Source: a virus. Taken from it: DNA of 22,610 nucleotides. The stretch lies in the IMG/VR virus record IMGVR_UViG_3300028361_000133, positions 1-22,610 of that record; one strand, written 5' to 3'. The translations under genes were made by a program, and so were the position numbers. Shown in pieces: positions 1,523 to 9,157 of the stretch (positions within the stretch are counted from its first letter, which is position 1; every line of letters starts with the position of its first letter). The notes below the pieces were generated by a model. It saw nothing but the letters and a program-made list of their open reading frames with translations. It searched no databases and was not told where the DNA came from.

Positions 1523-2787
1523 GCGACATCCTCCCCAAATAGTGACTGCTGCAACGGCTTAGAAATGCGTTGCATGATGAGCGGCAGGTGGTCGGCTTCC
1601 ATCTCCACGGCAATGCATGAGAACCCTTCGAGTAGGGCGGCTTCAATGGTTGTGCCGGATCCGGCGAACGGTTCGAGCACGACACCGCCGGGAGGTGTGA
1701 CGAGCCGCACCAGCCACCGCATGAGGTCAAGCGGTTTCACGGTGGGGTGTTGTTTGCCGTCAACGTCGGGCCGTTCACTGCCGGGCGCTTTCGCCTCATA
1801 GCGAAACGTTGGAAAGTAACGGGACGCGCCGCCAATGTCGTTGTGCCCGGTTGGTGTGCCAGCGTCCGAACGGGGCGCAATGGCACCCATGATGCCGCCG
1901 CTTCTGCCGTTGGGTGGATTCACGCCGCGCTTGCTCGTCGTCGTGCCGCTCTGCGCGTCGAGTGCTGCCGCTTGCGACTCGTCGAGCATGACGTTAGCGG
2001 GCCAGCGGCCGGCGGGGGCGTCGCCCGCTGCTTGAGCGTACTCGATAGTCTTTTTAGTCGTAAAAGCAACGGCCGACCCGCCGCCGTAGCTTCTGCTTTT
2101 CGGCCAGGTTTCAACGGTCGTGCCAACCCGCGCCGCGTCAATATTGAGCGCGCCCGTACCATACGCGAGCACGTTCGCCGCGACCGTCCCAAGGAACGGC
2201 TTACGTGCCACCACGACCGGTTCGAACGCAGGCTTCAACGCTGTCCCCCAACCCTGCCAACGCTCAGCATCAGACGTTTGCGCTTCGCTCCTGCTCACCC
2301 GACCCTCAGCAAACTTGCCGCTCATGATGCCGTTTTGCGGCAAGGCGGCACCGACAGAACCAACTCCGGGCCGAGACTCATTCGCAGCCCGAATCTGCCG
2401 TGAGATCGAACCGCCATGCACAATCGTCGCGTCAATAGCCTTCGACACGTTCAAAGACTTAGGAAACCCTGACCCGTACAACCACGCAATACTGTCCCGA
2501 ATCTCAAACCCGGCATCCTCTACCGCGACAGCCATGCGGTGAAACGTGCGGGAGGCTCCGAAGCTCAGAAGGTGACCGCCCGGCTTCAACACCCGCAAAC
2601 ACTCACGCCACATCGCAACGTCATACGCAATCCCCGTCGAATCCCAGCCGCGGCCCATAAAACCCAACTCGTAAGGCGGATCAGTAACAATCGAGTCCAC
2701 GCTGTCATCTGGCAGGGACGCTAAAACGTCGCGGCAATCGCCATGATGCAAGGTCACCAAGGTGTCTTGGTAATGCACGGCGTTCAC
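1519..2787 (-). CDS. Site-specific DNA methyltransferase (N6-adenine/N4-cytosine type)
   Basis: This 422-aa protein has the catalytic motif DPPY at residues 36-39 and the S-adenosylmethionine-binding motif EPFAGSGTT at about 372-380. That is the beta-class order, with the catalytic motif before the SAM motif. VLKPGGHLLSFGASRTFHR follows the DPPY region, and the long central part (about 110-340) probably holds target recognition. It would methylate phage DNA, protecting it from host restriction or marking it for regulation. No restriction endonuclease partner is visible, so it looks like an orphan enzyme. The recognition sequence cannot be read from this sequence. It overlaps both neighbours by 4 nt inside the replication block. 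Confidence 0.9.
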   Translation of the reverse strand: MNAVHYQDTLVTLHHGDCRDVLASLPDDSVDSIVTDPPYELGFMGRGWDSTGIAYDVAMWRECLRVLKPGGHLLSFGASRTFHRMAVAVEDAGFEIRDSIAWLYGSGFPKSLNVSKAIDATIVHGGSISRQIRAANESRPGVGSVGAALPQNGIMSGKFAEGRVSRSEAQTSDAERWQGWGTALKPAFEPVVVARKPFLGTVAANVLAYGTGALNIDAARVGTTVETWPKSRSYGGGSAVAFTTKKTIEYAQAAGDAPAGRWPANVMLDESQAAALDAQSGTTTSKRGVNPPNGRSGGIMGAIAPRSDAGTPTGHNDIGGASRYFPTFRYEAKAPGSERPDVDGKQHPTVKPLDLMRWLVRLVTPPGGVVLEPFAGSGTTIEAALLEGFSCIAVEMEADHLPLIMQRISKPLQQSLFGEDVA

Positions 2788-3569
2788 GCGGTCAGCTCCC
2801 GACGTAGTACGGCCTCATCCATTGCCCGCCCTTGCTCGATCAGCGTGAGCGCGCGCACATCCTTAGCCGGTCGGCTAGGTGGCCCGGATCGTGCGTTGCG
2901 AATCCAACTCCGAAACGTCAAGTCCCAACTGACCTTCACCCCACGCGCGCCAGCCTGTGCGGGCCAATAATCTTTGAACGCCGCAACCTGCCGTCCAACG
3001 TCCAGGTCAGCCCGCTCCCCTTGCGCCCATTCGGTCAAAGCTTCGGAGGGCATCCAGTCGGCAGGGAGTCGAGTGCCACGTGTGGCGCTAACTCTTTTGA
3101 TCTTCTCTGTCTCTGTCTCTGTCTCTGTCTCTGTCTCTGTCTCTGAGCGATCGTTTGCGATCGGTTTGCGATCCGTTTGCGATTCACTTGCGACATCGTT
3201 GCCAGCCCACCGCGACTCGTTGCCACGCTTCCCCGCCTCCGCACGCTTCACAGAAACAGCCGCACGACGCTCCTCAATATCAGCCCGCAACGGATGATGC
3301 TTCCCGAAGTCGTGAATCATCCACCCACCCTCAACAGGCACCCACGAAGGACGCTCACGGTCATTGGTAGCCAACTCGTCAGCGACCGCTTGCCCCCACC
3401 TTTTTAAAACGATCCGCTCATCCAAGAACCCGTCAGACAACATGCGCCGCGAGTAAAACGTGCCCTCGAACAGTGCCCGAAATGCGGCATCTGACAGGGG
3501 TGCAATTTTCGGGTGCTCGTCCATCTCGATCGGGAACGGGGCAAACAATCGGTTGTCTGTTTTTGCCAT
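2784..3569 (-). CDS. Phage replication initiation / primosome-type protein
   Basis: The 261-aa product has three parts. Residues 1-105 are a likely winged-helix domain (LFAPFPIEMDEHPKIAPLSD). A low-complexity hinge with a run of Glu-Thr repeats is at about 143-153. The C-terminal domain (about 165-232) contains GRQVAAFKDYWPAQAG and WDLTFRSWIRNA, a W..F..W pattern typical of phage replication O/DnaT-like C-terminal domains. It likely binds the origin and brings in the host helicase. The hinge-coding DNA carries four 11-bp repeats and a hexanucleotide microsatellite, which may form the origin. The start overlaps the upstream stop as TAATG. Confidence 0.7.
   Translation of the reverse strand: MAKTDNRLFAPFPIEMDEHPKIAPLSDAAFRALFEGTFYSRRMLSDGFLDERIVLKRWGQAVADELATNDRERPSWVPVEGGWMIHDFGKHHPLRADIEERRAAVSVKRAEAGKRGNESRWAGNDVASESQTDRKPIANDRSETETETETETETEKIKRVSATRGTRLPADWMPSEALTEWAQGERADLDVGRQVAAFKDYWPAQAGARGVKVSWDLTFRSWIRNARSGPPSRPAKDVRALTLIEQGRAMDEAVLRRELTA
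3104..3145. repeat. Hexanucleotide microsatellite, 7 copies of TCTCTG
   Basis: Seven perfect tandem copies of the plus-strand hexamer TCTCTG lie inside the replication gene. On the coding strand they encode the Glu-Thr repeat hinge. Because the unit is 6 bp, copy-number changes keep the reading frame and would lengthen or shorten the hinge by two residues. Confidence 0.95.
3153..3195. repeat. Four 11-bp iterons, candidate replication origin
   Basis: Direct repeats start at 3153, 3164, 3175 and 3186: GTTTGCGATC, GTTTGCGATC, GTTTGCGATT and the diverged ACTTGCGACA. They are spaced exactly 11 bp apart, with a further half copy (GCGATC) at 3147-3152. The period is not a multiple of 3, so the repeat is conserved as DNA and not as protein sequence. 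Iterons inside the initiator gene are the arrangement of the lambda O gene/ori. The DNA pattern is clear. The origin function is inferred. Confidence 0.6.
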
Positions 3570-7540: not shown

Positions 7541-7762
7541 TCACGCGGCACGCTCACCGAAGAACACGCCCACCGGAGTGTTGAGCACACGCGAGACGGC
7601 CAGCAGCTCGTGATACTTGAACTGCACCGACCCGTTCATCCGTCTGCTCATAGACATGCGGGTGATGCCGATTAGTTCGGCTAGGTGGCTGTGGGAAATG
7701 TTTTGCCGGGCGGATACCGCGCGGACTTCGGCTGCGACATCGCAGGGAGTTTGTTTCGCCAT
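7541..7762 (-). CDS. Cro-like HTH regulator
   Basis: A 73-aa protein starts at the ATG at 7762 (MAKQTPCDVAAEV). The ATG at 7855 would run through the operator region and is rejected. A Xre-type helix-turn-helix lies at about residues 22-45 (NISHSHLAELIGITRMSMS). Residues 8-67 align without gaps to the HTH domain of the divergent repressor, sharing RR..G.V and LN.PV..FF, so the two are paralogs and may compete for the same operators. It heads the early operon, as Cro does in lambdoid-style switches. It ends GERAA, a small hydrophobic tail that could be a ClpXP-type degron. Confidence 0.75.
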   Translation of the reverse strand: MAKQTPCDVAAEVRAVSARQNISHSHLAELIGITRMSMSRRMNGSVQFKYHELLAVSRVLNTPVGVFFGERAA

Positions 7763-7792
7763 GCGTGACACGTTGCCATACAGCGCGGGAGT

Positions 7793-7809
7793 GTTACGTA
7801 CTGCGTTAC
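7793..7809. promoter_or_regulatory. Second operator, imperfect palindrome
   Basis: GTTACGTACTGCGTTAC matches 13 of 17 positions of the perfect operator at 7867-7883, including the full GCGTTAC half. It lies 31 bp upstream of the Cro-like start, where a promoter for the early operon should be (a possible -35 TTGCGA on the minus strand is at 7816-7821). Repressor binding here would silence the early genes. The role is inferred from similarity and position. Confidence 0.5.
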
Positions 7810-7856
7810 GGCGTGTCGCAAGCGGGTGTTCGCTGTTGCGAATGTTCACGCGCATC

Positions 7857-7886
7857 TAGCCATGCGGTAACGCTATGCGTTACTAT
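7857..7886 (+). promoter_or_regulatory. Repressor promoter with leaderless start
   Basis: A -10-like TACTAT lies at 7881-7886, and a weak -35-like TAGCCA at 7857-7862 (18-bp spacer). The expected transcription start falls at about 7893, which is exactly the A of the ATG of the repressor. No ribosome binding site precedes that ATG, so the mRNA is probably leaderless. The operator at 7867-7883 sits between the two hexamers, implying autoregulation. Confidence 0.45.
7867..7883. promoter_or_regulatory. Perfect palindromic operator
   Basis: GTAACGC-TAT-GCGTTAC is a perfect 7-bp inverted repeat with a 3-bp centre, directly upstream of the repressor start at 7893. It is the size expected for a dimeric Xre-type repressor. 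Choosing the ATG at 7875 for the repressor would put this site inside the gene, which favours the ATG at 7893. Confidence 0.65.
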
Positions 7887-7892
7887 TTGGGC

Positions 7893-8249
7893 ATGACGAA
7901 CATTCAACTGACACCCGCAGAACTCGCAACACGCGAAACAATCGCCGCCAACCTTGACGCCGAACTATCCCGCAAGCGATACACCAAACGCCGCGCCGCC
8001 CTCGCAATGGGACTAAGCCACGTTTACGTCACACGGCGCGCCAAAGGGCAAGTAGAACTGTCCGGCTCAGATATGGTCATGTTCGCCAAATTCTTGAACA
8101 TTCCCGTGACCCGGTTTTTTGTAGGGCTCCCCGACTTGGACTCGAACCAAGAACCTGCCGGTTACACGCTTCACCACGTTGACGCCAATACAACAGCCAC
8201 CATTGAGCACACTGCCAACGTTCTGCATTTTCGTCCGCGCGCCAGCTGA
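7893..8249 (+). CDS. Phage repressor with the attachment site inside the gene
   Basis: The viral form is 118 aa from the ATG at 7893 (124 aa if the ATG at 7875 is used). A Xre-type HTH domain covers about residues 12-73 and ends FLNIPVTRFF. It aligns gap-free with the divergent Cro-like protein. After it, residues from LPDLDSNQEPAG onward are encoded by tRNA-antisense sequence (8125-8164), followed by a 28-residue tail ending RPRAS. Integration at the host tRNA should change GGT-TAC to GGT-TAA and give a 90-aa protein ending EPAG. It would bind the flanking operators and hold the early genes silent. Repressor identity is inferred from fold, operators and location. Truncation on integration is a prediction. 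Confidence 0.75.
   Translation: MTNIQLTPAELATRETIAANLDAELSRKRYTKRRAALAMGLSHVYVTRRAKGQVELSGSDMVMFAKFLNIPVTRFFVGLPDLDSNQEPAGYTLHHVDANTTATIEHTANVLHFRPRAS
8125..8164 (-). other. attP core identical in type to the 3' half of a tRNA-Asn
   Basis: Read on the minus strand, the 40 bases form the end of a tRNA: TAA from an anticodon loop, CCGGC stem strand, AGGTT variable loop, a perfect T-arm CTTGG-TTCGAGT-CCAAG, acceptor strand TCGGGGA, then G and CC. A72-G73 before CC and the TAA after the anticodon fit tRNA-Asn(GTT). The 5' half is absent, so this is not a tRNA gene. It lies 174 bp upstream of integrase, as expected for a tyrosine-integrase attP using a tRNA gene as attB. Confidence 0.8.
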
Positions 8250-8293
8250 CCCAGCGTGCAGCGACAACAAAAAACGCGCCCGATTCAGTAAAC

Positions 8294-8310
8294 AAGATTA
8301 GATCAATCTT
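8294..8310. repeat. Inverted repeat between repressor and integrase
   Basis: AAGATT and AATCTT are separated by AGATC in the 89-bp gap between the repressor stop and the integrase start. It could be a protein-binding site for integrase or an excision factor, or a weak RNA hairpin. No second copy was noticed. Confidence 0.35.
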
Positions 8311-8338
8311 CCACTCACAGTAGAGAAACGGAAGCACC

Positions 8339-9157
8339 ATGATCGACGCATACGCCCAACACTTAGCCGCAGCAGGTAGAGCCGCAGGTACCATCAAACT
8401 TCGCACAGCTCACCTCACACACTTAGCCCGCCATTACAACCTAAACACGGTGACGACCGGGCAGCTTGAGCAAATGCTCGCCGCCCGACGTGACACGCAC
8501 TCGGCAGAGTCCCGCAAATCGTTGCGCTCAAGCTACCGATCTTTCTACCGTTGGGCTGACCGTACCGGCAACGTGACATTCAACCCCGCCGCAGACCTGA
8601 CACCAATCACGGTCCCGGTGAAGGTTGCCCGCGTTGCCGCCGACGACGTACTGCAAAACGCGCTCATCGTTGCCGACGAATGGCAGACGGCCATGATTTA
8701 CCTAGCCCGATTTGCCTGCCTGCGCCTCACCGAACTGACCACCTTGCACACAAGCCAGCGCACGCATGACGAGTTGCGCATCATCGGCAAGGGCGACAAA
8801 GAACGCGTCGTGTACTGCAACGAAGACCTCATGCATTCACTGCTCACACTGGAACGCATTCAGGGTCGCGGCTACTACTTCCCCGGACGCATCAGCGGGC
8901 ACATGCACTCCGCCAGTGTCAACAAAATCATGACCCGCCTGACCGGATGCAACCCGCACTCACTCAGGCACGCCGGCGCAACCGCCGCATACAAAGCCAC
9001 CGGTGATCTGCGCAGCGTCCAGCTCATGCTCGGCCATTCGAGTATGGCAACCACGCAACGCTATTTGCATCCAGGGGTAAACGAATTGCGTGCAGTCGCG
9101 GCAGGTACCGCGTTCGTGTCAAAAGACACCCGTTTTCGGGTGAGTGTTGCCGCGTAA
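8339..9157 (+). CDS. int: Tyrosine integrase
   Basis: This 272-aa site-specific recombinase has an N-terminal SAM-like core-binding domain (about residues 1-85) and a catalytic domain with the full residue set: R129 (ACLRLTEL), K151 (IIGKGDK), H207 and R210 (HSLRH), H233 (LGHSS) and the nucleophile Y242 (TQRYLH). There is no obvious arm-binding extension, so it is a short form. GGAAG precedes the ATG. The gene follows the repressor on the same strand, with the attP core inside the repressor, so integration would cut it off from the repressor promoter. It ends RVSVAA, similar to an ssrA-like degron. Confidence 0.95.
   Translation: MIDAYAQHLAAAGRAAGTIKLRTAHLTHLARHYNLNTVTTGQLEQMLAARRDTHSAESRKSLRSSYRSFYRWADRTGNVTFNPAADLTPITVPVKVARVAADDVLQNALIVADEWQTAMIYLARFACLRLTELTTLHTSQRTHDELRIIGKGDKERVVYCNEDLMHSLLTLERIQGRGYYFPGRISGHMHSASVNKIMTRLTGCNPHSLRHAGATAAYKATGDLRSVQLMLGHSSMATTQRYLHPGVNELRAVAAGTAFVSKDTRFRVSVAA

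Follow-up and report, generated by a model that had tools for sequence, protein, structure and literature searches.

Prediction of an integration-dependent immunity switch at a tRNA-Asn attP core in a temperate phage of Microbacteriaceae

The window, i.e. the whole stretch of 22,610 nucleotides analysed here (IMG/VR record IMGVR_UViG_3300028361_000133), very probably harbors an integration-dependent immunity switch of a temperate Microbacteriaceae phage. The attP common core is located inside the repressor gene, and its recombination with a host tRNA-Asn is predicted to turn a Tyr codon into a stop, leaving the prophage with a repressor devoid of its C-terminal tail.

The repressor, the core and the integrase

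The features of the region are as follows.

7541..7762, minus strand: divergent Cro-like HTH protein, 73 aa, ending ...GERAA (HTH matches; phrog_4583, 1e-14)
7793..7809: operator-like element GTTACGTACTGCGTTAC, related to the palindrome at 7867-7883 (repeat family D1)
7867..7883: operator-like palindrome GTAACGC-TAT-GCGTTAC with perfect 7-nt arms, directly before the repressor start (repeat search)
7893..8249, plus strand: HTH immunity repressor, viral form, 118 aa (ORF, HTH_3, phrog_4583, lysogen homologue)
7893..8249 gene, plus strand: predicted prophage form, repressor residues 1-90 (in-silico junctions)
8125..8164, minus strand: attP common core, the 3' half of tRNA-Asn(GTT) from anticodon position 36 to the 3' end (exact genome matches, ARAGORN)
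8163..8165, plus strand: TAC codon (Tyr91) on the core edge; once joined to the host, it reads TAA, a stop (in-silico junctions)
8166..8249, plus strand: 27-aa C-terminal tail following Tyr91, present only in the viral form (...NVLHFRPRAS), and stop codon (translation)
8339..9157, plus strand: tyrosine integrase, 272 aa, C-terminus ...RVSVAA (Phage_integrase E=2e-17, SAM-like N-terminal domain)

As the preliminary description had read from the letters, the core (8125-8164) lies in frame within the repressor ORF (7893-8249), which crosses its 40 nt as CCT GCC GGT TAC, and the integrase ORF (8339-9157) follows downstream. The repressor and integrase genes are adjacent and codirectional, the Cro-like gene is divergent, and both operator-like elements sit between the latter and the repressor. 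A consensus search of positions 7700-8400 returned no sigma-70-like promoter.

The 118-aa repressor matches HTH_3 (Pfam, E=5e-4) and the phrog_4583 transcriptional repressor (2e-7), and the Cro-like protein aligns by BLASTP to its residues 17-76 (9e-8). The start was set at 7893 and preferred over the longer alternative at 7875 because a lysogen relative in L176 begins at the position equivalent to 7893. A folding model built on five sequences (mean pLDDT 73) assigns helices to residues 8-76, corresponding to the HTH, and the core starts at residue 78, in keeping with the earlier proposal that this domain finishes before the core. The model confidence is low from residue 83 on, tail included, and the model suggests that the tail is probably disordered. 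To note, the Cro-like proteins of the window (7541-7762) and of contig L033 (7568-7807) end in -RAA, which is also degradation-tag-like.

The integrase sequence begins at its SAM-like domain, the domain scan detecting no N-terminal arm-binding domain, and no convincing arm-like repeats were found in positions 7880-8500. An excise match was likewise not found among the ORFs scanned of this record, which may be a fragment. The integrase ends in -SVAA and its relatives in -LAA; the termini vary, yet all end in -[LV]AA, the last two residues being invariant. Judged by its sequence, this C-terminus would carry an ssrA-like tag, a requirement of the switch type described for mycobacteriophage BPs.

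Host junctions and proviruses of relatives

Since ARAGORN calls no complete tRNA in the window, only the tRNA 3' half is present there. In the genome collection, 30 contigs contain an exact match to the 40-mer core; they are actinobacterial, mostly from Microbacteriaceae (Microcella, Leifsonia, Naasia, Amnibacterium and Salinibacterium), plus a few from Hamadaea, and the matching locus is a tRNA-Asn(GTT) in each of the nine loci tested with ARAGORN. An exact tRNA match over 40 nt is far beyond chance, and the host tRNA-Asn that had been postulated is thereby found. When the 5' part of the repressor gene is joined in silico to these host junctions, a 90-aa protein ending in NQEPAG results in all 30 cases, which agrees with the shortening from 118 to 90 aa proposed earlier. 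The tRNA-Asn reads TTAAC on the repressor strand, and the TAA is the antisense of its positions 37, 36 and 35; the stop is thus provided wherever a tRNA-Asn carries A37. The sequences indicate a TAA templated by the tRNA anticodon, which would make the host species irrelevant to the stop. Counted from the start of the core, the frame reading DSN stops after 10 codons and the second frame after 17, both at 30/30 junctions, and the third is variable. The exact stop is less improbable than the core match, because one frame in three meets the TAA of any tRNA-Asn; it gains weight because twelve real proviruses use the same frame.

Six of these proviruses come from a sample of 400 genomes of the family to which the Leifsonia aquatica genome belongs, 23 of which contain integrase relatives at E below 1e-40. 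In G053, G069, G075, G201, G283 and G379, the core found upstream of the integrase has its partner, a tRNA-Asn, at a distance of 17-47 kb. At this tRNA-Asn, which is intact, an ORF reads into the gene and stops at the TAA as DSN[QH][QE]P[AI]G, and the homologous integrase lies at the opposite end of the prophage from this truncated repressor ORF. The separation of the integrase from the repressor promoter upon integration, also part of the preliminary description, is seen as an integrase placed at the far prophage end. Rejoining attP in these six Microbacteriaceae prophages yields a longer viral ORF each time. The other six are IMG/VR proviruses (L039-L043 and L045) with the same frame and stop as predicted for the window; the sequence of L045 ends right after the TAA, its tRNA not being seen whole, and a related integrase is present at the opposite end in three of the six records. 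One frame is shared by all 12 proviruses, which carry other repressors than that of the window and are not all independent. In L039/G011, the repressor is 50% and the integrase 57% identical to those of the window. HTH-type Pfam matches, some of them weak, were obtained for nine of the ten provirus repressors scanned, the one without a Pfam match being that of G075.

The search for lysogens suggested by the preliminary description has thus been answered by relatives: twelve proviruses truncated at tRNA-Asn were retrieved, and no lysogen of the very phage in the window was among the finds. Genus-level searches around three lysogen hosts gave no further lysogens. Plasmids searched by tblastn with the 90-aa form yielded no match, nor did the phage collection when queried by blastn with the region.

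On the attL side of several lysogens (L215, L219, L220, L222, L223 and L224), a terminator-like hairpin is present in frame within the repressor ORF, immediately ahead of the core. Much the same hairpin occurs at both prophage ends in G053 and G069, and the window has none just before its core.

Proposed switch and competing readings

In the virus, the repressor and integrase genes would be read in one direction, probably from the repressor promoter as a common transcript. C-terminal tags on the 118-aa repressor and on the integrase would let little of either persist, favoring lytic growth. Surviving integrase would carry out recombination between the core and the host tRNA-Asn 3' half, the phage copy of the core restoring the tRNA. 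The 5' part of the repressor gene would then be joined to the tRNA 5' half, where the antisense of bases 37, 36 and 35 reads TAA. The tail being removed, a stable and active 90-aa repressor would maintain lysogeny, and the integrase gene would come to lie at the opposite end of the prophage, apart from the repressor promoter. We infer the degradation of the tagged forms, the activity of the short form and the co-transcription; the instability of the viral form and the activity of the short one are proposed by analogy with BPs.

It is highly improbable that the frame crossing the core is open by chance, as a high-GC antisense reading of a tRNA, and that another gene encodes the true repressor. 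Such frames do exist: at 9/30 background tRNA-Asn loci, the same frame is open over at least 55 codons. Open antisense frames are hence weak evidence alone, and HTH content was required of the provirus ORFs for this reason. None of the nine background ORFs has an HTH match in Pfam, which argues against an open antisense frame alone as the explanation, whereas the ORFs of the window and of most proviruses have such matches. The recurrence of one frame across the twelve proviruses, and the intact layout of repressor, Cro-like gene and operator-like elements in the window, also argue against a chance reading.

As to the tail, attP might be genuinely inside the repressor gene and both forms might repress equally, the tail being harmless readthrough and immunity being independent of integration. 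The low model confidence of the tail and the differing tail sequence of the close relative L032 are consistent with this reading, and for BPs, DNA binding in vitro is alike for the long and the short form (PMC4557955). The viral C-terminus of the window repressor is -RAS, not the canonical ssrA-like -LAA, and in L032 it is extended by three residues (-RASQNS). Viral tails were compared among viral contigs, where only HTH ORFs reading in the same frame into other cores were kept, as a broad tRNA-like pattern mixed in other tRNAs, and among the six genome prophages, the only ones used for tail reconstruction, since the IMG/VR provirus sequences break off at the integrase on their attR side. Among the matches listed, tails end in neither -AA nor -AS in L113, G069, G075, G283, G379 and L032; the reconstructed tails of G283 (-ARQ) and G379 (-VNR) are not ssrA-like. 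Conversely, many viral tails do end in -AA (L101, L132, L139, L151, L188, GRU3 and G053 among the matches listed) or in -AS (G201), the tail frame stays open in the window, L032, L033 and the six reconstructed prophages, and the integrase tags are conserved as in BPs. Equal repression by both forms thus appears unlikely. By analogy with BPs, whose repressor is stabilized by A135E, a change at the penultimate alanine (PMC4557955), the tail is a candidate degradation tag.

A loose motif like [NDE]AV[VI]xxL is found near the C-terminus in the tails of the window, L032, G053, G069, G075, G283 and G379, even where the final -AA or -AS is lacking; its version in the window is ANVLHF.

Known switches and exchange at the core edges

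Integration-dependent immunity is established in BPs and relatives, and is predicted for many Gordonia phages (PMC4557955, PMC9262239, PMC4929511, PMC5559632). The BPs precedent invoked earlier for an attP inside the repressor gene holds, down to the stop: a host base beside the core converts the third position of a codon, Cys at a tRNA-Arg in BPs (PMC9262239), Tyr (TAC to TAA) at a tRNA-Asn in the window. The cluster G mycobacteriophages BPs and Angel resemble the window in having attP inside the repressor gene with a tRNA core, repressor and integrase genes in one direction with a divergent Cro-like gene, a repressor C-terminus trimmed by integration, and a tagged integrase. At the sequence level, the BPs-type layout features tested, namely a core in the repressor gene, a codirectional integrase and a tRNA attB with truncation at the in-silico junctions, all apply to the window. 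The Angel repressor, gp33, ends in LDKAS, its -KAS resembling the -RAS of the window; its antisense frame reads EGFEPPT instead of DSNQEP. For another Angel gene product, gp34 (NC_012788; L182 2999-3256), the record gives the name recombination directionality factor, whereas the BPs paper describes BPs gp34 as Cro-like.

The closest phage integrases are those of Gordonia phages and mycobacteriophages: Gordonia phages GMA5 and GRU3 rank top in the phage collection at about 36% identity, and the Angel integrase is about 34% identical. In the GRU3 repressor, which ends in -TAA, the antisense frame is the one used in the window and gives RDSNPEPAD. No full-length match to the window repressor was found among the known phages of the collection; the repressor of Gordonia phage Guacamole is among its best HTH matches, a weak one. 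The earlier view of a same logic operating in an unrelated-looking repressor stands, at the sequence level, for the layout, junctions and proviruses, and has to be softened as to the repressor in view of this weak match. GMA5 and GRU3 are reported at tRNA-Lys and Obliviate and Guacamole at tRNA-Thr, in hosts different from that of the window; for these four phages, integration-dependent immunity is predicted in the cited papers, not established by experiment. In the papers searched, no published example in Microbacteriaceae was found, nor one at a tRNA-Asn. The present analysis would extend such immunity to tRNA-Asn phages of Microbacteriaceae. It also makes natural lysogen/virus comparisons available for testing the switch, and provides a rule for searching such switches in raw sequence, i.e. 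an HTH ORF ending DSNxxP[AI]G at a tRNA-Asn.

Two close relatives differ from the window on opposite sides of the core. In L033, the core, tail and integrase are mostly over 90% identical to those of the window, whereas the whole immunity cassette (Cro, operator and repressor HTH, about 7560-8126) is replaced, and similarity starts again at the core's left edge (8126). The pattern is reversed in L032, which is nearly identical to the window leftward of the core and across it and has a divergent tail. These patterns suggest, in a small sample, that both core edges are natural recombination boundaries; an exchange of cassettes there points to a way in which immunity may acquire a new specificity with the switch intact. 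A wider reading, which we hold with belief and doubt in equal measure, is that of a Microbacteriaceae phage lineage with a stop templated by the host anticodon loop, a host-independent switch, and a core used as the seam for whole-cassette exchange, tail and integrase being kept. Elsewhere in the window, the putative replication-initiation protein (2784-3569) contains a ETETETETETETE run encoded by a simple repeat at about 3100-3145 on the minus strand.
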